A stretch of DNA of 64,000 bases. Origin: an uncultured delta proteobacterium (lineage in GTDB: Bacteria; Myxococcota_A; UBA9160; JAFDET01). Where the stretch lies: positions 62,001 through 126,000 of the forward strand of contig CAMYLJ010000026.1 of assembly GCA_947259215.1 (NCBI GenBank), read 5' to 3'. This document shows, piece after piece, positions 31,240 to 62,545 of this stretch (positions are counted from its first letter, which is position 1; each line of letters starts with the position of its first letter). Both the position numbers and the translations under genes were made by a program. Below the pieces are notes generated by a model that saw only the letters and a list, made by a program, of their open reading frames with translations, was not told the origin of the DNA and ran no database searches.

Positions 31240-32430
31240 TCAGCCGCGGGGGAGCTGATCGAAGGGCAGGTCGCGGTCGGGACCCGGCTCGCGCGGCAGG
31301 CCCAGCACCCGCTCGGCGGCCTGGTTCTTCTGGATCTCGTCGGTGCCGCCGGCGATGTGGAAGGACGGCGCCATCAGGAAGATGTCCTGCCACATGCCGT
31401 CCTTGCCGGCGGCGTCGGCGCCGAGGAGACGCAGCCCGGCTTCGCCGCCCCCGGTCACGATCCGCGCCATGGCGAGCTTCATGACCGACGCTTCGGCGGC
31501 GGGCATCTCGCCGCGGCCGAGCTTCGTGATCATGCGCGCGTTCAGCAGCTCGAGGCTCTTCACCCAGGTGTAGAGCCGCGCCACGTCGTCGCGCAGCACG
31601 TCGTCCAGGCGCTCGGCGTTCTGGCGCACGTGGGCCAGGAAGTCCTCCCAGCGGAAGGACATCAGCTCGATCCCACCGATCGCCATGCGCTCGTGCATCA
31701 AGGTCGTCTTGGCCACCGCCCAGCCCCCACCCTCGGGACCCAGCCGGCAGTGATCGGGGATGCGCACTTCGTTCAGGAAGATCTCGTTGAAGTGCTCGCT
31801 GCCCGTCATCTGGCGCAGGGGGCGCACCTCGACGCCCGGTGTCTTCATGTCGAGCAGGAAGAAGCTGATGCCCTGGTGCTTGGGCAGGCTTGGATCGCTG
31901 CGCGCCAGCAGGATGCCCCAGTCGCCGTAGTGTCCGCCGGAGCACCAGGTCTTCTGGCCCGAGAGCACCCAGTCGTCGCCGTCGCGATCCGCGCGGCAGG
32001 CGACCCCCGCCAGGTCCGAGCCGGCGCCGGGCTCGCTGAAGAGCTGGCACCAGATCTCCTCGCCGCGCAGCATGGGCGCGAGGAAGCGCGCCTTCTGGGC
32101 ATCGCTTCCGTGGGCGATGATCGTCGGGCCCGCCATCCCGATCCCCACCACGAACACCGACTCGCCGAGGCCGGCCCGGGCCAGCTCCTGGTTCCAGACG
32201 ATCTGCTCGATGGGGCCGAGGCCGCGGCCGCCGAACTCGCGCGGCCAGGTGAGGGCGGCCCAGCCGTGTTCGTAGAGGGTGCGCTGCCAGGCCCGGTTGC
32301 TGCGCACCAGGGCCTCGTCGTCCACGTTCTGGGCGAAGGCGTGGACGTACTCCTTGGGCCCGTGCGCCTCTAGGAACGCACGCGCCTCGCTGCGAAAGGC
32401 CGCTTCCTGGGGAGAGTCTCGAAAGTCCAC
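31240..32430 (-). CDS. acyl-CoA dehydrogenase (FadE26/FadE17-like)
   Basis: A 396-residue FAD acyl-CoA dehydrogenase starting MDFRDSPQEAAFR. Features: WPREFGGRGLGPIEQ, SEPGAGSDLAGVACRA (FAD binding), LSGQKTWCSGGHYGDWGILL, and C-terminal FHIAGGTDEIQKNQAAERVLG. Length fits the family. Its promoter region holds a palindrome of the TnnAACnnGTTnnA type 24 bases before the start, the same type as upstream of the TetR gene at 36069. It is probably part of that regulon, and the likely substrate is a bulky or steroid-derived acyl-CoA (inference). Confidence 0.9.
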   Translation of the reverse strand: MDFRDSPQEAAFRSEARAFLEAHGPKEYVHAFAQNVDDEALVRSNRAWQRTLYEHGWAALTWPREFGGRGLGPIEQIVWNQELARAGLGESVFVVGIGMAGPTIIAHGSDAQKARFLAPMLRGEEIWCQLFSEPGAGSDLAGVACRADRDGDDWVLSGQKTWCSGGHYGDWGILLARSDPSLPKHQGISFFLLDMKTPGVEVRPLRQMTGSEHFNEIFLNEVRIPDHCRLGPEGGGWAVAKTTLMHERMAIGGIELMSFRWEDFLAHVRQNAERLDDVLRDDVARLYTWVKSLELLNARMITKLGRGEMPAAEASVMKLAMARIVTGGGEAGLRLLGADAAGKDGMWQDIFLMAPSFHIAGGTDEIQKNQAAERVLGLPREPGPDRDLPFDQLPRG

Positions 32431-32453: not shown

Positions 32454-32467
32454 TAGAACACGTTTCA
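32454..32467. promoter_or_regulatory. KstR-type palindrome upstream of acyl-CoA dehydrogenase
   Basis: TAGAACACGTTTCA fits TnnAACnnGTTnnA, the form reported for mycobacterial KstR sites. Partial symmetry extends outward (GAGT...ACTC). It lies 24 bases upstream of the ATG of the minus-strand acyl-CoA dehydrogenase and shares AACACGTTTCA with the site at 36656-36669. Confidence 0.65.
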
Positions 32468-32525
32468 CTCTAGCAGGCAACCCCCGCCCCTGGGCGGGGG
32501 CGTGGGAGAAGCCGGAGCCGTGGAC

Positions 32526-32717
32526 CTACTCCTCGATGGAGATCGCCTGCTTGGGGCAGAGGCGCACCGCCTCTTCGACCTTGGCGCGCATGTCCGCGGG
32601 CGGATTCTCCTGAAGAATGGTGAGAGTGTCGTCTTCCTCGACGCGGAAGATCTCGGGGGCGACGCCCATGCAGACGGCGTTTGCCTCGCACAGGTCCCAG
32701 TCGACGACGACCTTCAT
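32526..32717 (-). CDS. small ferredoxin, 3Fe-4S or 4Fe-4S type
   Basis: A 63-residue ferredoxin: MKVVVDWDLCEANAVCMGVA with cysteines 9 and 15, then a C-terminal AVRLCPKQAI cysteine-proline. The three-cysteine pattern is that of the short 3Fe-4S ferredoxins which donate electrons to bacterial cytochromes P450 or other oxygenases. Start is ATG 32717; a longer start would overlap the divergent gene. It lies between three acyl-CoA dehydrogenase genes. Confidence 0.85.
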   Translation of the reverse strand: MKVVVDWDLCEANAVCMGVAPEIFRVEEDDTLTILQENPPADMRAKVEEAVRLCPKQAISIEE

Positions 32718-32776
32718 CGCACGCTCCTTGGCTGAGTGGGGCTCAAGGCATAGCACGCCGAAGGGAGAGCGGCAGC

Positions 32777-33952
32777 ATGTACGTGGACCTGACCTCCGAA
32801 CAGAAGCGCTTCCGCGACGAGCTGCGCGAGTACTTCGGCGCCATGATGACTCCGGAGCTCGTGGACGAGATCCGGGGTAGCGAGGGCGGTGGCCCGCTGT
32901 ACCGCGCGGCGCTGAAGCAGATGGGGAAGGACGGCCTGCTCGGCGTCGGCTGGCCGAAGGAGTACGGCGGGCGCGGCCTGACCTCGGTCGAGCAGTTCAT
33001 CTACTCCGACGAGGTGCAGCGGGCGGGCTACCCCCTGCCGTTCCTGACCCTGAACACCGTCGGTCCCACGCTCATGCACTTCGGGACCGACGACCAGAAG
33101 CAGGAGTTCCTGCCCCGGATCCTGGCCGGCGACGTCCACTTCTGCATCGGCTACTCGGAGCCCAGCGCGGGGACCGACCTGGCGTCGCTCCAGACGCGGG
33201 CCGTGCGCGAGGGCGACGAGTGGGTGATCAACGGCCAGAAGATCTGGACCAGCCTCGCCGACTTCGCGGACTACGTCTGGCTGGCCGCCCGCACCGACCC
33301 GGACGCCAAGAAGCACCGCGGCATCTCCATGTTCATCGTGCCGACCTCGTCGGAAGGCTTCAAGCTGACCCCGATCACCACCATGAGCGGGGTCCGCACC
33401 AACGCCACCTACTACGAGGACGTGCGCGTCCCGCATGCGGCGCTGGTCGGCGGCGAGAACCAGGGCTGGGGCCTGATCGTGAGCCAGCTCAACCACGAGC
33501 GCGTCTCGCTCGTGAACATCGGTCCCTCGGAGCGCCTCTACGACGAGGTGGTGGCCTGGGCGCGGGACGCCAAGATGGCCGACGGCGGCCGCGTGATCGA
33601 CGAGGCCTGGGTGAAGCTCAACCTGGCGCGCTTCAAGGCCAAGCTCGAGGCGCTGCGGCTCATGAACTGGAAGCAGGCCTGGTGCATGACCCAGGGTGCG
33701 CTGCATCCCGCCGACTCGTCCGCCGCCAAGGTGTTCGGCAGCGAGTTCTACATCGAGGGCTACAACCTGCTGCTCGAGGTGCTCGGCGCCCGCGGCATGC
33801 TCAAGGGCGATTCGCCGGAGGTCGCGCTCCGTGGCCAGCTCGAGATGCGGTACCTGTCGTCGCTGATCCTGACCTTCGGCGGCGGCACCAACGAAGTGCA
33901 GCGGGACATCATCGCCATGGCCGGGCTGCAGCTCCCCCACTACAAGGACTGA
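32777..33952 (+). CDS. acyl-CoA dehydrogenase, FadE29-like subunit
   Basis: A 391-residue acyl-CoA dehydrogenase beginning MYVDLTSEQKRFRDELREYF. Segments such as GVGWPKEYGGRG, FCIGYSEPSAGTDLASLQTR, TNATYYEDVRVP and LILTFGGGTNEVQRDIIAMAGL closely follow the mycobacterial FadE29 (ChsE2) sequence as I recall it. It is followed 3 bases later by a second, shorter dehydrogenase resembling FadE28. In mycobacteria FadE28 and FadE29 form an alpha2-beta2 heterotetramer that oxidises the three-carbon steroid side chain. Start ATG 32777 has AAGGGAGA upstream. Confidence 0.88.
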   Translation: MYVDLTSEQKRFRDELREYFGAMMTPELVDEIRGSEGGGPLYRAALKQMGKDGLLGVGWPKEYGGRGLTSVEQFIYSDEVQRAGYPLPFLTLNTVGPTLMHFGTDDQKQEFLPRILAGDVHFCIGYSEPSAGTDLASLQTRAVREGDEWVINGQKIWTSLADFADYVWLAARTDPDAKKHRGISMFIVPTSSEGFKLTPITTMSGVRTNATYYEDVRVPHAALVGGENQGWGLIVSQLNHERVSLVNIGPSERLYDEVVAWARDAKMADGGRVIDEAWVKLNLARFKAKLEALRLMNWKQAWCMTQGALHPADSSAAKVFGSEFYIEGYNLLLEVLGARGMLKGDSPEVALRGQLEMRYLSSLILTFGGGTNEVQRDIIAMAGLQLPHYKD

Positions 33953-33955
33953 GCC

Positions 33956-35032
33956 ATGGACTTCAGCTTCACCGAAGAGCAGGAGGCGCTGCGCGAGCTG
34001 GCGCGAAAGATCCTGGGCGATTTGGCCTCCCCGGAGCGCCTGCGCGAGATCGAGGGCAGCGACGAGTTCTTCGACCGCAATCTCTGGAGCGAGCTCGCCA
34101 AGGCCAACCTGCTCGGCGCTTCCCTGCCCGAGGCGCACGGCGGAAGCGACCAGGGCTTCTTCGAAGTGTGCCTGCTGCTCCAGGAGCAGGGCCGCAGCGT
34201 GGCGCCGCTTCCGCTGCACGGCACCCTGATCGCGGCCCAGGCCCTGGCGCGCTTCGGAAGCGACGCCCAGCAGGCCGCGTGGTTGCCCAAGGTGGTGAGC
34301 GGCGACGCAGTGCTGGCGCTGGCCCTCGAGGAGGAGGGCAACGACGACCTGCTGGCGCCCACCACCAGCGCCCGCCGCGACGGCGATGCCTGGCGCCTGG
34401 ACGGCACCAAGGTGGCCGTGGCCGCGGCCGGTGTCGCCGACCGCCTGCTGGTCACCGCCGGCGACGGCGCCTTCCTGGTGGATCCGGCGGGCGCCGGCGT
34501 GAGCCTCTCGAAGCAGACCGGAACCAGCCGCGAGCCCGTCTGGTGGCTGACGCTCGAAGGCGCGGCGGGCGAGCGGCTCGAGGGTGCAGAGCTCGCCTGG
34601 ATCACGCACCGCGCGGTCACGGGCCTGTGCGCGATCCAGCTCGGCGTCTCCGAGCGCGCCCTCGAGATGACGGCTCAGTACGGGCGGGAGCGCGAGCAGT
34701 TCGATCGGCCCATCGGGAGCTTCCAGGCCTTCCACCAGCGCGCCGCCGACGCCTTCATCAACGTGGAGGCCATCCGCCTCACCGTGTGGGAGACGGCGTT
34801 CCTGCTCGACGAGGGCCGCGACGCCAGCCAGGCCGTGGACGTCGCCAAGTACTGGGCCTGCGAGGGCGGCCAGTCCGCGGGCTACGCCTGCCAGCACCTG
34901 CACGGCGGCATCGGCATGGACGTGGACTACCCGCTGCACCGCTACTACATGTGGGCCAAGCAGCTGGAGCTCTCGCTCGGCTCCGCGCACCGCGCCCTCA
35001 CGCGCCTGGGCGCCGCCGAAGCGCGTCCCTAG
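33956..35032 (+). CDS. acyl-CoA dehydrogenase, FadE28-like subunit
   Basis: A 358-residue acyl-CoA dehydrogenase-fold protein starting MDFSFTEEQEALRELA. The C-terminal block CQHLHGGIGMDVDYPLHRYY matches the FadE28 (ChsE1) type, which pairs with FadE29. The central flavin region is shortened relative to homotetrameric enzymes. It directly follows the FadE29-like gene (3-base gap), so the two likely form an obligate heteromer on a branched or steroid side-chain CoA ester. Its 3' end lies within the left copy of the 53-bp repeat that flanks the transposon. Confidence 0.87.
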   Translation: MDFSFTEEQEALRELARKILGDLASPERLREIEGSDEFFDRNLWSELAKANLLGASLPEAHGGSDQGFFEVCLLLQEQGRSVAPLPLHGTLIAAQALARFGSDAQQAAWLPKVVSGDAVLALALEEEGNDDLLAPTTSARRDGDAWRLDGTKVAVAAAGVADRLLVTAGDGAFLVDPAGAGVSLSKQTGTSREPVWWLTLEGAAGERLEGAELAWITHRAVTGLCAIQLGVSERALEMTAQYGREREQFDRPIGSFQAFHQRAADAFINVEAIRLTVWETAFLLDEGRDASQAVDVAKYWACEGGQSAGYACQHLHGGIGMDVDYPLHRYYMWAKQLELSLGSAHRALTRLGAAEARP

Positions 35033-35059
35033 CCGTCGCCGTTCTTCAGCAGCAGCCCG
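35007..35059. repeat. 53-bp direct repeat, left copy, flanking the HUH element
   Basis: It matches 36047-36099 at 50 of 53 positions. It contains the last codons of the FadE28-like gene and, on the other strand, a copy of the last codons of the TetR gene (GLLLKNGD). The empty site therefore held one copy where the two genes converge. Confidence 0.85.
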
Positions 35060-35091
35060 TAAGAAACGGGGACGGTCCTTAGAAACGCTTC
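35060..35091. repeat. left terminal inverted repeat of the HUH element
   Basis: 32 bp, starting TAAGAAACGGGGACGGTCCT; 31 of 32 positions match the inverse of the right end. It carries two nested GAAACG half-sites in direct orientation. Confidence 0.8.
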
Positions 35092-35954
35092 CTGCGGGGG
35101 AGCGCCATCCGTTTGCGCTTTAGCGCTTGGCTCAGGGCAGCTGGCGTGACGCCGAGGGTGGGTGCGATCGACTCCAGGCTCAGGCCGCGCGCGACGGCGG
35201 CTGCGCATATCCGAACCCGCGCTTCGCAGACCGCAGATCGTCGGCTGCCCGCCGCGAGCTGCCGCGCCTCGACGCGGAGCTCGTCGCAGATCTTGCGCAC
35301 CAGCGCGGGTAGCTCGCCGTTGCCGATGCGTACATCGCTTCGGCATCGCGAGATGGCAGGGTTGCTGGGGTTGAACTCCAGCTCCGGCGGCTCGTCATCA
35401 ACGACTGCCAATAGCCCGCGCCGCAGCGTCGCCCGAACTCGCGCCGGATCCGAACCCATCAGTGCCAGCGCATCGCGCGTCGTGTGGAAGCTGCGCGCCG
35501 GCTGGTGCCCGAGCAGTGCTCCGTGCCCAACCCATGGGAACCGCTCCAACGCGGCCAGGTCGCTCACGACGCCGTGCTTCCACGGGTTCCGGTGCACGTA
35601 CAGGATCGTGCCGAGAAGGTCTGCATCGTCGTCGAGGGGACGGGAGCGGTAGCGGCTCTGGAAGAGATGGCCGACCCGTCCATGTCGGCGGTTGAAATGC
35701 ATCGCGTAGCTTGTGTTCAGCGACGCCATCACCCGGTCGAGTGGGATCTGGCGCGTCTGCACGACCAAGTGCACGTGATTCGGGATCAGCGCCCAGGCGA
35801 AGCACGGCATTCCGGCTGCCGGGAACGTGCGGTCGAGCCGGGACAGCAGCTCTTCTCGATCCCGATCGTCCGCAAAGATGCGCCGCCTCTCGACGCCGCG
35901 AAGGATGATGTGGTGGATCATCCCCGGCTCGTCGATCCGAGGTCCTCGGGGCAT
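35079..35954 (-). CDS. REP-associated tyrosine (Y1) transposase
   Basis: A 291-residue protein with an N-terminal Y1/HUH domain: GMIHHIILRGVERRRIF, the HUH pair in LIPNHVHLVVQT, and SYAMHFNRRHGRVGHLFQSR with YVHRNPWKHG downstream, near the usual catalytic tyrosine. The C-terminal 100 residues contain a helix-turn-helix-like region (LSLESIAPTLGVTPAALSQA), as in TnpA-REP proteins. It nicks single-stranded DNA at structured ends. Its stop codon lies inside the left terminal repeat. Confidence 0.9.
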   Translation of the reverse strand: MPRGPRIDEPGMIHHIILRGVERRRIFADDRDREELLSRLDRTFPAAGMPCFAWALIPNHVHLVVQTRQIPLDRVMASLNTSYAMHFNRRHGRVGHLFQSRYRSRPLDDDADLLGTILYVHRNPWKHGVVSDLAALERFPWVGHGALLGHQPARSFHTTRDALALMGSDPARVRATLRRGLLAVVDDEPPELEFNPSNPAISRCRSDVRIGNGELPALVRKICDELRVEARQLAAGSRRSAVCEARVRICAAAVARGLSLESIAPTLGVTPAALSQALKRKRMALPRRKRF

Positions 35955-36012
35955 TTGTTCACTCCGCGGGACCTGCGGGGCACTCGAAGGGTAGCGCGTC
36001 GGCCGCGACCTC

Positions 36013-36044
36013 GAAGCGTTTCTTAGGACCGTCCCCGTTTCTTA
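36013..36044. repeat. right terminal inverted repeat of the HUH element
   Basis: Inverse of the left end with one mismatch; ends CCGTCCCCGTTTCTTA before the right flanking repeat. Confidence 0.8.
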
Positions 36045-36046
36045 GG

Positions 36047-36099
36047 TGGGCGCGGCGGAAGCGCGTCCCTAGCGGTCGCCGTTCTTCAGCAGCAGCCCG
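36047..36099. repeat. 53-bp direct repeat, right copy
   Basis: 50 of 53 bases match 35007-35059. It includes the true 3' end of the TetR gene (stop 36069-36071) and a copy of the FadE28-like gene's last codons. Confidence 0.85.
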
Positions 36100-36644
36100 G
36101 CGGTCGACTTCATCTGGTCGATGATGCCGGCCTGCGTGTGCAGCCCGCCGGACCAGCCGACCAGGCACGAGAACCAGACGTGCTCCAGCACCAGGGCCAG
36201 GGCGCGCTCGTCCTCGCTCGGCGGACGCTCGCTGGCGTCGCGCTCGCCGCGGATGGCGGCGGTGATGAGCCGCGCCATGCGGTCGTGGAAGCTCGACACC
36301 TTCTCGGCGATCTCGGGATCGCCGGACGTCATGGCGCGCAGCACGGCGCGTGTCAGGTTGGGGCGCCGGCACAGCCCGCGGGTGCCGGCGGCGAAGAAAG
36401 CGGTGAGCCGTTCCGCCGCGCTGTCGCCCCGCGGCGGGCGCGCCAGGCTCCGGCGCTCCAGCTCCTCGGCCTCCTGCTCCAGGGCCGCCACCAGCAGGTC
36501 TTCCTTGCTGCGGAAGCGTCGGTAGAGGGTCCCGAGGGCGACGCCGGCCTGGTCCGCCACGTCGCGGAGGCGGACCGCCTCGAAGCCACCCTGCTCGGCC
36601 AGCTCCACGGCCGTCTCGACGATGCGGCGGGCGCGCTCCTCCAT
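36069..36644 (-). CDS. TetR-family regulator, KstR-like
   Basis: A 191-residue repressor with a normal TetR HTH: AVELAEQGGFEAVRLRDVAD then QAGVALGTLYRRFRSKEDLL. The downstream LCRRPNLTRAVLRAMTSGDPE and the SKEDLLVAALEQE block resemble KstR, the steroid-catabolism repressor of mycobacteria. A near-perfect operator TGAAACACGTTTCA lies 12 bases before the ATG, so it probably represses itself. The matching site in front of the acyl-CoA dehydrogenase at 32430 indicates a local regulon. The natural ligand is probably a CoA thioester (by analogy). Confidence 0.87.
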   Translation of the reverse strand: MEERARRIVETAVELAEQGGFEAVRLRDVADQAGVALGTLYRRFRSKEDLLVAALEQEAEELERRSLARPPRGDSAAERLTAFFAAGTRGLCRRPNLTRAVLRAMTSGDPEIAEKVSSFHDRMARLITAAIRGERDASERPPSEDERALALVLEHVWFSCLVGWSGGLHTQAGIIDQMKSTAGLLLKNGDR

Positions 36645-36655
36645 GCCGCTGGAAT

Positions 36656-36669
36656 TGAAACACGTTTCA
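36656..36669. promoter_or_regulatory. KstR-type palindromic operator in the TetR promoter
   Basis: TGAAAC-AC-GTTTCA: perfect 6-bp arms with a 2-base spacer, matching TnnAACnnGTTnnA. Outer bases AA/TT extend the symmetry with one mismatch. It sits between the TetR start and the upstream enoyl-CoA hydratase stop. Confidence 0.75.
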
Positions 36670-36719: not shown

Positions 36720-37490
36720 CTAGCTTCCCTGGTAGACGGGATCGCGGCGCTCCACCATGGCGGCGATCCCTTCCATTGCATCCTTGCTGTTGAAGAGAAG
36801 GGCGCCGTCGGCGCGGAGGCGTGCCGCCGCGGCGTCGCGTGCGGGGCGCTCCGCGGCGCGCTGGCCCGCCAGGGCCGACTGGACTGCGAGCGGTGCGTTC
36901 GCGGCGATGGCTTGCGCCACGCCGAGGGCGCGTTCGAGCTGCTCGCCGGCAGGGACCACCTCGGAGACCAGCCCGGCAGCAAGCGCCTGCTCGGCGTCGA
37001 AGGTCTCTGCGCCCAGGAGCCAGCGCGTTCCGCGCGCGCCGAGGCGAGCCCCGAGACGGAAGGTCGCTCCGCCGAGGGGAACGATCCCCCGTGCGACCTC
37101 GAGCTGAGCGAACGTCGTGTTCGCAGATGCGATGACGGCTTGCGAAGCCAGCGCCAGCTCGATGCCGAGCGTGAAGCAGCGGCCCTGCACGGCCACGACG
37201 ATCGGCTTCGGGCACGGTTCTCCCACGAAGTCCCAGGGATCGCAGAGGTCTGCGGGAAGGATCGAGGTCGCGTCGCCCTGGGCCAGGGCCGGTGCCACGT
37301 TCATCAGGTCGAGACCTGCCGTGAAGTCGGGCCCGTGCCCGAACACCAGACCGACCCGAAGGGTTGGATCGTTGGCGAGATCCGTGTACGCCTGGGCGAC
37401 GGCCTGGATGATCTCGATGTTCCAGGCGTTGCGCTTCTCCGGGCGGTTGACGCCGATCCGCAGAACGGCTCCTTCACGGTCGATGGTCAC
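36720..37490 (-). CDS. enoyl-CoA hydratase/isomerase family protein
   Basis: A 256-residue crotonase-fold enzyme. Family blocks: RPEKRNAWNIEIIQAV near the N-terminus, FGHGPDFTAGLDL (oxyanion hole 1), VVAVQGRCFTLGIELALASQ (oxyanion hole 2) and TTFAQLEVARGIVPLGGATF. The usual catalytic glutamate positions are only partly evident, so hydratase, isomerase or hydrolase are all possible. GTG 37490 is the best start, with CAGGAGAG about 25 bases upstream. It is last in the minus-strand unit acyl-CoA dehydrogenase-pyrE-GH172-ligase-hydratase. Confidence 0.85.
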   Translation of the reverse strand: MTIDREGAVLRIGVNRPEKRNAWNIEIIQAVAQAYTDLANDPTLRVGLVFGHGPDFTAGLDLMNVAPALAQGDATSILPADLCDPWDFVGEPCPKPIVVAVQGRCFTLGIELALASQAVIASANTTFAQLEVARGIVPLGGATFRLGARLGARGTRWLLGAETFDAEQALAAGLVSEVVPAGEQLERALGVAQAIAANAPLAVQSALAGQRAAERPARDAAAARLRADGALLFNSKDAMEGIAAMVERRDPVYQGS

Positions 37491-37528: not shown

Positions 37529-39022
37529 CTACTTCTTGAGCTCCCGCTTCAGGATCTTGCCCGTCGGCCCCTTGGGCAGCTCGTCGAGGAACTCGACGAT
37601 GCGGGGGTACTTGTAGGCGGCCAGGCGCTGCTTGGCCCAGGTGATCAGCTCCTCGGCGGTGACGCTCTTGCCGGCGCCCAGGGCCACGATGGCCTTCACC
37701 TCTTCGCCGTGGCTCTCGTGCTCCACGCCGATCACCGCGGCCTCGATCACGGCTTCGTGCTCGTAGAGCACCTCTTCGATCTCGCGCGGATAGACGTTGA
37801 AGCCGCCGCGCAGGATCATGTCCTTCTTGCGGTCCACGATCGTGTAGCAGCCGTCCTCGTCGCGCACGCCGACGTCTCCGCTGTGGAACCAGCCGTCGCG
37901 GAGGGTTTCGGCGTTGGCCTCGGGGCGCTTCCAGTAGCCCTTCATGATGTTGTGGCCGCGGATGCAGATCTCGCCGGGCTCGCCGTCGGGGAGCGGGTTG
38001 TCGTCGGCGTCGAGGATCGCCATCTCGACGCCCCAGACCGGGTAGCCGATGGAGCCCACCTTGCGCGGGCGGTCCAGCATGTTGAAGCTCGCCACCGGCG
38101 AGGTCTCCGAGAGGCCGTAGCCCTCCAGGATCGGGACGGCGTACTTCTCCTCGAAGGACTTCATCACCTCCACCGGCATGGGCGCGCCACCGCACATGCA
38201 GAAGCGCAGGCTCGAGAGGTCGAAAGCGTCGCCGCCCTCGTGGTGGAGCAGGGCGAAGTACATGGTGGGGACGCCGGCGAAGAGGGTCACCTGGTCGCGC
38301 TGCATGATCTCGAAGGCCAGCTCCGGGGTGAAGCGCGGCAGCAGGGTGAAGGTGCCGCCGGCCGCGATGGTGGCGTTCTGGATGCAGGTCTGTCCGAAGG
38401 AGTGGAAGAGAGGCAGGGTGGCGAGCGCCACCTGGTCGCCGTCTACGGGCAGGAGCTTCGGGACGACGATGGCGCAGTTGATCAGCAGGTTGGAGTGGCT
38501 GAGCTCGGCGCCCTTGGGCTTGCCGGTGGTGCCGGAGGTGTAGAGGATCACCGCGGTGTCGTCGGGACTCGTCGGGTGCAGCGCCTCGATCGGGTCCGCG
38601 GCCGCCAGGTCCCAGACGGTCTCGCCCTCTCCGCCGCCGGCCCACACGACGGGCACGCCCGCCGCCGCGGCGCCTTCCGTCGCCGGCTGGGCGAAGAGCG
38701 GGTGCGCGAAGAGCAGCGTCGCCTCGGAGTCCTGGAGGTGGTAGGTCACCTCCGGCGCCGAGAGCAGCACGTTCAGCGGCACCGCGGCGCCACCGGCGTA
38801 GAGGATCCCGAAGTAGGCGATGGTGAAGTCCGGGACGTTCGGGATCATGATCCCGACCTTCTGCCCGGGCTCGAGCCCGCGCTGGCGCAGGGCGCTGGCC
38901 ACGCCGCGGGCGGCGCGGTCGAGCTGCGCGTAGGTCAGCGCGAAGTCGTTGATCTTGACGGCCACATGCTCGGGCCGCTGGCTGGCGCTGCCCTGGAGGA
39001 TCGTGCCGAGGTTCAGGCTCAT
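37529..39022 (-). CDS. long-chain-fatty-acid-CoA ligase (AMP-binding)
   Basis: A 497-residue acyl-CoA synthetase of the ANL family. AMP-binding P-loop AVILYTSGTTGKPKGAELSH, then LPLFHSFGQTC, ILEGYGLSETSPV, GWFHSGDVGVRDEDG, DRKKDMILRGGFNVYPREIE and the C-terminal LPKGPTGKILKREL with the catalytic lysine. It activates a carboxylate to acyl-CoA using ATP. It is 23 bases after the GH172 gene in the same direction. Substrate chain length cannot be told, though context favours lipid or steroid breakdown. Confidence 0.92.
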   Translation of the reverse strand: MSLNLGTILQGSASQRPEHVAVKINDFALTYAQLDRAARGVASALRQRGLEPGQKVGIMIPNVPDFTIAYFGILYAGGAAVPLNVLLSAPEVTYHLQDSEATLLFAHPLFAQPATEGAAAAGVPVVWAGGGEGETVWDLAAADPIEALHPTSPDDTAVILYTSGTTGKPKGAELSHSNLLINCAIVVPKLLPVDGDQVALATLPLFHSFGQTCIQNATIAAGGTFTLLPRFTPELAFEIMQRDQVTLFAGVPTMYFALLHHEGGDAFDLSSLRFCMCGGAPMPVEVMKSFEEKYAVPILEGYGLSETSPVASFNMLDRPRKVGSIGYPVWGVEMAILDADDNPLPDGEPGEICIRGHNIMKGYWKRPEANAETLRDGWFHSGDVGVRDEDGCYTIVDRKKDMILRGGFNVYPREIEEVLYEHEAVIEAAVIGVEHESHGEEVKAIVALGAGKSVTAEELITWAKQRLAAYKYPRIVEFLDELPKGPTGKILKRELKK

Positions 39023-61288: not shown

Positions 61289-62545
61289 ATGCGGACGGGA
61301 CTCAGCGTGGCCGAGGCCCTGGCCGTGGTTCTGGACGCCGCCGGACGCCTGGCCCCGGAGACGGCGCCCGCCGCGGACGCGCTCGGTCGGGTGCTGGCCG
61401 AGCCGGTGGCCTCGGACCGGGCGCTTCCGCCGGCCGACAACTCCGCCATGGACGGCTACGCGGTGCGCGCGCGCGACTGCGCCGGCGCCCGCTCCGGATC
61501 CCCGGTATCGCTCGCGCTGGCCTTCGAGGTGGCGGCGGGCGGGAGTGCGGAGCGCGCGCTCGCCGCCGGCGAGGCCGCGCGCATCTTCACCGGTGCGCCG
61601 ATCCCGCCCGGCGCCGATGCGGTGGTGCGGCAGGAGGACACGGATCGCGACGGCGACGCAGTGCGGGTGAACGTCACGCCCGGCGAGGGCGAGCACATCC
61701 GCCGCCGTGGCGAAGACGTGGACGAGGGCGAGACCGTGCTGGTCCCGGGTACGTGCCTCGGCCCCGCGCACCTCGGGATGCTGGCGTCCCTGGGGCGGAC
61801 GGGGGTGTCGGTCGTGCAGCGTCCCCGCGTGGCGATCCTCTCCGGGGGCGACGAACTGGTGGAGCCCGACGCCGACGTGGCCGGCGGCCGGATCGTGGCC
61901 TCCAACTCCTACTCGCTGGCCGCCCAGTGCCGCGAGGTGGGGGCGGAGCCTACCTACCTGGGGATCGCCCGGGACACGCCCGCGGACATCGAGGCGCGCT
62001 TCCGCGCAGGCCTCGCGGCCGACGTGCTGGTGAGCTCGGCGGGCGTGTCGGTGGGCGACCGCGACCACGTACGCGGCGTGCTCGCGAAGCTCGGCGCGGG
62101 CATGGTCTTCTGGGGCGTGCAGATGAAGCCCGGCTACCCGCTCGTCTTCGCGCGCTTCGATCCGGGGCCGCTGGTCTTCGGGCTGCCGGGGAACCCGGTC
62201 TCCGCCATGGTGACCTTCGAACAGTTCGTGCGGCCCGTGCTGCTCAAGCTGGCCGGTCGCACGCGCCTCTTCCGCCCGCGGGTGCGGGCGCGGCTGGCGA
62301 CGCCGCTGCGCAAGCAGCCCGGCCGGCTGCACTTCGTGCGCGTGGTGCTCGAGCGGGGCGACGCAGGGCTCGTGGCCCGGGAGACGGGGAACCAGAGCTC
62401 GGGGGTGCTGCGTTCCATGTGCGAGGCCCAGGGCCTGCTGATCTTCCCCGCCGAGGCCAGCGAGCTTCCGGCAGGGAGCGAGGCGGAGGTGCAGGTGCTC
62501 GACGAGAGCATCCTCCGCGAGGAGGCGTCGGGCCTCGAGGCGTGA
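61289..62545 (+). CDS. moeA: molybdopterin molybdotransferase
   Basis: A 418-residue MoeA: ADNSAMDGYAVRARDCAG, ARIFTGAPIPPGADAVVRQED, EGEHIRRRGEDVDEGE, VAILSGGDELVEPD, LVSSAGVSVGDRDHVRGVL and FGLPGNPVSAMVTFEQFVRP. It inserts molybdate into adenylylated molybdopterin. The mobA gene begins in its stop codon, forming a small cofactor operon. Confidence 0.95.
   Translation: MRTGLSVAEALAVVLDAAGRLAPETAPAADALGRVLAEPVASDRALPPADNSAMDGYAVRARDCAGARSGSPVSLALAFEVAAGGSAERALAAGEAARIFTGAPIPPGADAVVRQEDTDRDGDAVRVNVTPGEGEHIRRRGEDVDEGETVLVPGTCLGPAHLGMLASLGRTGVSVVQRPRVAILSGGDELVEPDADVAGGRIVASNSYSLAAQCREVGAEPTYLGIARDTPADIEARFRAGLAADVLVSSAGVSVGDRDHVRGVLAKLGAGMVFWGVQMKPGYPLVFARFDPGPLVFGLPGNPVSAMVTFEQFVRPVLLKLAGRTRLFRPRVRARLATPLRKQPGRLHFVRVVLERGDAGLVARETGNQSSGVLRSMCEAQGLLIFPAEASELPAGSEAEVQVLDESILREEASGLEA

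Follow-up and report, generated by a model that had tools for sequence, protein, structure and literature searches.

A probable KstR-like autorepressor and its operators before steroid side-chain and C/D-ring genes in an uncultured Myxococcota lineage

We analyzed a 64-kb stretch of an uncultured bacterial genome (the window; positions 62001 to 126000 of contig C26) in which a gene for a TetR-family regulator and a gene for an acyl-CoA dehydrogenase are each preceded by a 14-bp palindrome resembling the sites of KstR (Rv3574) of Mycobacterium tuberculosis (Kendall 2007, PMC1995591). The regulator is likely (roughly 80%) a KstR-like autorepressor of a steroid side-chain and C/D-ring regulon whose operons share this palindrome. 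Beyond the window, the assembly (5.70 Mb, 128 contigs, 95.7% complete) was analyzed as stretches around the sites plus a few steroid-gene candidates. The original prediction, which tied the TetR gene to one dehydrogenase gene in a proteobacterium-like host, is supported in that link and in placing a regulon outside Actinobacteria, but the regulon is wider than these two genes, and the host, judging from its relatives and the taxonomy in the tree, belongs to a Myxococcota-affiliated "Deltaproteobacteria" lineage.

Both palindromes were found where they had been predicted (Table 1), and both fit the mycobacterial KstR motif as published (PMC1995591). As had also been claimed, the window holds no further match to TnnAACnnGTTnnA (0.05 expected); likewise, there were two TNNAACNNGTTNNA sites versus 0.05 expected, and none of 100 shuffles contained two. 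The predicted gaps of 12 and 24 bases to the start codons were each too large by one: the TetR gene starts with ATG at 36644 (minus strand), 11 bp from operator 1, and the dehydrogenase gene starts with GTG at 32430 (minus strand), 23 bp from operator 2. As in actinobacterial KstR, an TnnAACnnGTTnnA site stands in front of the regulator's own gene. In gel shifts, M. tuberculosis KstR binds a probe containing the 14-mer TGAAACGTGTTCTA (Rv3545c/Rv3546; PMC1995591), of which operator 2 is the exact reverse complement. The 14-mer of operator 2 recurs in the genome at C17:119658 and C43:6648.

For statistical comparison, we counted motif matches genome-wide. The loose motif had 23 sites versus 4 for its reversed control, and its tight form, TRRAACRYGTTYYA, had 7 versus the 0.097 expected from base composition (P ~ 1e-11; an ~70-fold excess). 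All seven tight sites are intergenic, with a gene start 10 to 39 bp downstream. Two of the 16 remaining looser sites lie upstream of genes, within 51 bp (L005:8091 and L007:4067), and the one-mismatch sites C10:191578, C35:18688, and C29:89371 have no clear target gene in front of them. In 10 relatives, there were 60 tight sites versus a single reversed-control site (the reversed pattern was absent from nine of them). The tight sites examined in the retrieved stretches were almost always intergenic (53/54) and near a gene start (51/54), versus 15% and 20% of random positions. An A two bases 5′ of the 14-mer was conserved in 42 of 61 distinct sites and a T two bases 3′ in 44, the same outer bases as in many mycobacterial operators (PMC1995591). 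Short palindromes do recur, and 14 of the 23 loose matches overlap called genes, as chance matches would; the genome-wide excess of tight sites and their retention at orthologous promoters across families nevertheless leave this explanation with next to no probability, and we consider a chance origin ruled out. The motif is thus far above background frequency, the point on which the original prediction had said it could fail.

To characterize the regulator, we compared its sequence and predicted structure with those of known proteins. The KstR model NF033703 was its best NCBIfam match by far (2.3e-38; 131.6 bits, full length), with the TetRs of relatives scoring 123 to 130 bits, and KstR also led the PDB sequence search. 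The AlphaFold2 model (pLDDT 92.9) has the KstR fold: the 23 best Foldseek matches were M. tuberculosis KstR, both DNA bound and ligand bound, and Rhodococcus 3bjb chains, with TM-scores of 0.78 to 0.93. The two proteins have the TetR fold in common over their full length, and their recognition regions are nearly identical (VALGTLYRRFRSK in the window versus VAVGTLYRYFPSK in M. tuberculosis), although overall identity is 31 to 33%. In the final tree of 71 rows, from which long-branch outgroups that had disturbed the first tree were left out, the protein falls within a Myxococcota clade (42 rows; support, 95/91) that lies next to the actinobacterial KstR rows instead of among them, and the two are united against other TetRs at 100/100. 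The predicted kinship with KstR holds in part: the protein groups with KstR and not with other TetRs, but as a sister lineage. We make no claim that the protein is KstR, only that it probably functions like it. A second, smaller Myxococcota TetR clade (L210, L211, L212, L214, L216, L219, L220, and L226), possibly a paralogue with a regulon of its own, lies near actinobacterial KstR; because it falls on that side, the tree does not fix the branching order within the KstR superclade.

The genes behind the other sites point to steroid breakdown. In the side-chain operon at C5:40902, the Ltp2-type lipid-transfer thiolase scored 599 bits (cutoff, 469) and the FadA5-type steroid 3-ketoacyl-CoA thiolase 574.7 bits (cutoff, 515); the ChsE-type dehydrogenases match 4x28/6wy8, and ChsH2 matches 4wnb and 6ok1. 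By sequence, these dehydrogenases appear assignable at the level of type, not to exact actinobacterial counterparts. We tried to assign the P450 of this operon to CYP125 but kept it as "P450," as its best match is CYP130 (481 bits), with CYP125 and CYP142 far behind. About 3 kb past the operon end (L196:1920-4491, C5) lies another lipid-transfer thiolase/MaoC/ChsH2-like set, without its own operator. As in the KstR regulon of M. tuberculosis, the motif stands in front of side-chain genes, and the targets are alike in kind (ChsE, ChsH, Ltp2, FadA5, and EchA19 types), with an autoregulatory site, the same 14-bp palindrome with its outer A and T, and one operator identical letter for letter. The motif stands before fadE- and echA-type genes, as had been predicted, and also before chs- and ipd-type genes. 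It does not extend to ksh, hsa, and kstD genes, none of which is preceded by the motif in this genome; unlike in the actinobacterial KstR regulon, these genes are outside motif control, and the Ipd cluster is under it.

The most distinct feature of the system is this KstR-type site at the Ipd cluster, which is KstR2's place in Actinobacteria. KstR2 (Rv3557c; Kendall 2010, PMC3068626) has a similar target cluster (ipdAB, ipdC, echA20, fadA6, ipdF, and dehydrogenases). Here, IpdA matches M. tuberculosis IpdA (6co6) at 6.5e-107, and the FadA6-type and EchA20-type proteins score 702 bits (cutoff, 591) and 368 bits (cutoff, 260), respectively; IpdB, IpdC, and IpdF were assigned from position and kind alone. 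Unlike at KstR2 targets, the KstR2 motif AnCAAGnnCTTGnT is missing at the retrieved Ipd loci (a single match across 228 loci, and not at an Ipd cluster), and a KstR-type operator is in its place. The window TetR, moreover, aligns with KstR2 structures over residues 4 to 57 only. Overall, the evidence for the side-chain and C/D-ring steps is good.

General fatty-acid regulators of the PsrA, FadR, or FadP type resemble this protein in TetR family membership, acyl-CoA ligands, and a somewhat similar palindrome, their motif also being of the form GAAAC...GTTTC. Operator 1 in fact also fits GAAACnnGTTTC, the PsrA form, many of the regulon members are generic acyl-CoA enzymes, and HsaC is missing. 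The protein might then be such a regulator, with the steroid-like enzymes acting on other branched or cyclic acyl-CoAs. We regard this as quite unlikely, as the sequence and structure matches are far weaker than those to KstR: the PsrA and FadR models score 19.1 of 300 and 39.6 of 200 bits (both under cutoff) versus 132 bits for KstR, and Foldseek gives 2e-5 for Thermus FadR versus 1e-9 for KstR. The targets, too, match steroid-specific models and structures, several of them above cutoff.

We investigated how far the KstR-like system is conserved. We examined 98 genomes, including that of the window, and 67 of them contain a TetR orthologue (41 to 78% identity along the whole protein); the carriers span the order and class and a dozen families. 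In 26 of the 29 best relatives, an operator precedes the orthologue, 8 to 77 bp from its start, and several relatives have two copies 22 bp apart. Operator 2 is kept in the same position in relatives G001, G002, and G003; the ChsE-ChsH2 operon is preceded by an operator in G001 to G004, as is the window's ChsE-type dehydrogenase pair, immediately, in G017, G026, G045, and G071. The operator also recurs in several relatives before orthologous EchA19-like, nitronate-monooxygenase-like flavoprotein, LLM/PQQ-IpdA, oxidoreductase, and dehydrogenase/ferredoxin genes; the indolepyruvate:ferredoxin oxidoreductase-type protein carries it in three genomes (loci L003, L060, and L090). The TetR and ChsH2 genes are at most 12 kb apart in 21 relatives, mostly ≤2.5 kb, and TetR presence correlates with that of ChsH2 (Fisher P = 2e-6; 6e-4 within order and class) and with that of IpdA, kinship ignored in both cases. 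Among the remoter Myxococcota TetRs of the clade, the operator before the own gene is mostly missing. The cultured Paraliomyxa miuraensis SMH-27-4 (L132) has a TetR of the clade (46% identical) with no operator upstream. The close resemblance of the enzymes and operator to actinobacterial ones could reflect recent gene transfer from Actinobacteria, but a well-populated Myxococcota clade beside actinobacterial KstR and orthologues in so many families make this improbable. An ancient transfer, in either direction, may have occurred.

Several observations weigh against a KstR-like steroid regulon. The TetR score is under the KstR equivalog cutoff (280 bits for NF033703), and the protein is therefore filed as KstR-like, not KstR. 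The Ipd-cluster site, TAGAACATGTTGCA, is one base off the tight consensus in this genome, no part in steroid metabolism is known for one regulon member (the 1,164-aa indolepyruvate:ferredoxin oxidoreductase-type protein), and some relatives (e.g., G071) carry the TetR without ChsH2 or IpdA. As for rings A and B, HsaC was not found in this 95.7% complete genome (best match, 40.8 of 450 bits), the best KstD match is weak (255 of 788 bits) and distant from any tight site, and no operator lies near the KshA-like Rieske oxygenase genes, which are present (best PDB match, KshA). As HsaC is absent and KstD weak, we do not claim a full 9,10-seco pathway; ring A/B opening does not share the support of the side-chain and C/D-ring steps, which leaves the steroid substrate an inference.

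The missing HsaC and weak KstD would fit a regulon that is real but serves sterol-like compounds other than cholesterol, such as hopanoids or sterols made by Myxococcota themselves, and degrades them in part, at the side chain and C/D rings only; PMC12004948 describes Myxococcota as sterol producers. We consider this unlikely: IpdABC-type C/D-ring genes presuppose prior removal of rings A and B, KshA-like Rieske oxygenases are present, and G045, from another family (L172, L179, L229, and L234), has HsaC-like (231.7 bits) and KstD-like (600 bits) genes. The G045 genes suggest that genes for rings A and B may be unevenly distributed across the order.

By analogy with KstR, the autorepressor would work as follows. 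A TetR dimer would bind T(A/G)(A/G)AAC(A/G)(C/T)GTT(C/T)(C/T)A at or just past the promoter of the TetR gene and those of the scattered operons, repressing them when no steroid is available. Its release would most likely be caused by a CoA thioester from early steroid side-chain breakdown (KstR ligands are reviewed in PMC8228715 and PMC6678751). The genes so controlled would be an operon for side-chain beta-oxidation (ChsE-type dehydrogenases, ChsH1/ChsH2, Ltp2, FadA5-type thiolase, SDR, MaoC, and P450), the EchA19-like hydratase, the window's dehydrogenase/ferredoxin cluster, and a C/D-ring cluster of the IpdA-IpdB-IpdC/EchA20/FadA6/IpdF kind, which is KstR2 controlled in Actinobacteria. The sites, their positions and conservation, the enzyme families, and the predicted fold are what the sequences themselves supply to this model. 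A bolder version, which we hold tentatively and at less than even odds, is that one KstR-like repressor does the jobs of both KstR and KstR2, running the side-chain and C/D-ring halves in a deep Myxococcota lineage that opens rings A and B without HsaC, with an operator nearly unchanged across two phyla.

Table 1. Operators and genes in the window (window coordinates) and sites with their target genes elsewhere in the genome (contig:position)
Feature	Position	Strand	Basis or genes
Operator 1, TGAAACACGTTTCA	36656..36669	.	Palindrome, imperfect only at central two bases; TetR start codon 11 bp away
Operator 2, TAGAACACGTTTCA	32454..32467	.	Reverse complement of TGAAACGTGTTCTA, M. tuberculosis Rv3545c/Rv3546 KstR site
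KstR-like TetR-family regulator, 191 aa (P0001)	36069..36644	-	NCBIfam, PDB, Foldseek, tree
Acyl-CoA dehydrogenase, first gene after operator 2	31240..32430	-	Best PDB match steroid-type Tcur3483 (6wy9, 1.7e-48)
Small ferredoxin	32526..32717	-	Conserved beside TetR/dehydrogenase cluster
Acyl-CoA dehydrogenase, large subunit of ChsE-type pair	32777..33952	+	4x28_A, 2.2e-142, 478 bits
Acyl-CoA dehydrogenase, partner subunit	33956..35032	+	Adjoins large subunit; conserved pair
Enoyl-CoA hydratase, upstream of TetR	36720..37490	-	NF005126, 294.8 bits (cutoff, 261)
Acyl-CoA synthetase (FadD type), upstream of TetR	37529..39022	-	Beside TetR in G001, G002, G003, and G004 too
Site	C5:40902		ChsE-type dehydrogenase, ChsH2 (MaoC+DUF35), second dehydrogenase, ChsH1-like MaoC, Ltp2-type thiolase, steroid 3-ketoacyl-CoA thiolase, SDR, MaoC, P450
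Site	C17:119658		EchA19-like hydratase (336 of 400 bits, below cutoff); two divergent glutathione-transferase-like genes (named by eye)
Site	C43:6648		Nitronate-monooxygenase/FabK-like flavoprotein; divergent kinase-like gene
Site	C5:149533		1,164-aa indolepyruvate:ferredoxin oxidoreductase-type protein (L003:511-4005)
Site, somewhat different palindrome TGGAACGCGTTCCA	C5:57696		Short operon with SDR
Site TAGAACATGTTGCA, one side	C34:7666		LLM/SDR pair
Site TAGAACATGTTGCA, other side	C34:7666		PQQ dehydrogenase-like, IpdA, IpdB, IpdC-like, EchA20-type, dehydrogenases, DUF35, thiolases, SDR

Among the neighbors of the TetR gene (Table 1), the large ChsE-type subunit has its top match outside the 4x28/6wy8 group at 146 bits, and the ferredoxin neighbors are 71 to 86% identical in G001, G002, G003, G017, G026, G045, and G071. 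The TetR gene ends at a Y1/REP-type transposase gene (35079-35954, minus strand) flanked by inverted AAGAAACGGGGACGGTCC-like ends (region 35034-36099), and the last ~25 bases of the TetR gene (GTCGCCGTTCTTCAGCAGCAGCCCG) are found on both sides. No Y1/REP-type transposase gene was called at the corresponding place in G002 and G003.

KstR has so far been studied as an actinobacterial regulator, and surveys restrict the 9,10-seco pathway to Actinobacteria and Proteobacteria. A search of the open-access literature for KstR together with Deltaproteobacteria or Myxococcota returned nothing relevant. The presence of a KstR-like repressor and of its operators before steroid-breakdown genes in Myxococcota, across dozens of relatives, suggests that this type of control extends beyond Actinobacteria. 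It raises the question of which control is older, one repressor or two, and the operator offers a handle for picking out steroid genes in Myxococcota. With sterol-making members in the same phylum, Myxococcota may both build and degrade sterols, and the conserved KstR-type regulon points to their uncultured lineages as an additional set of likely steroid degraders.

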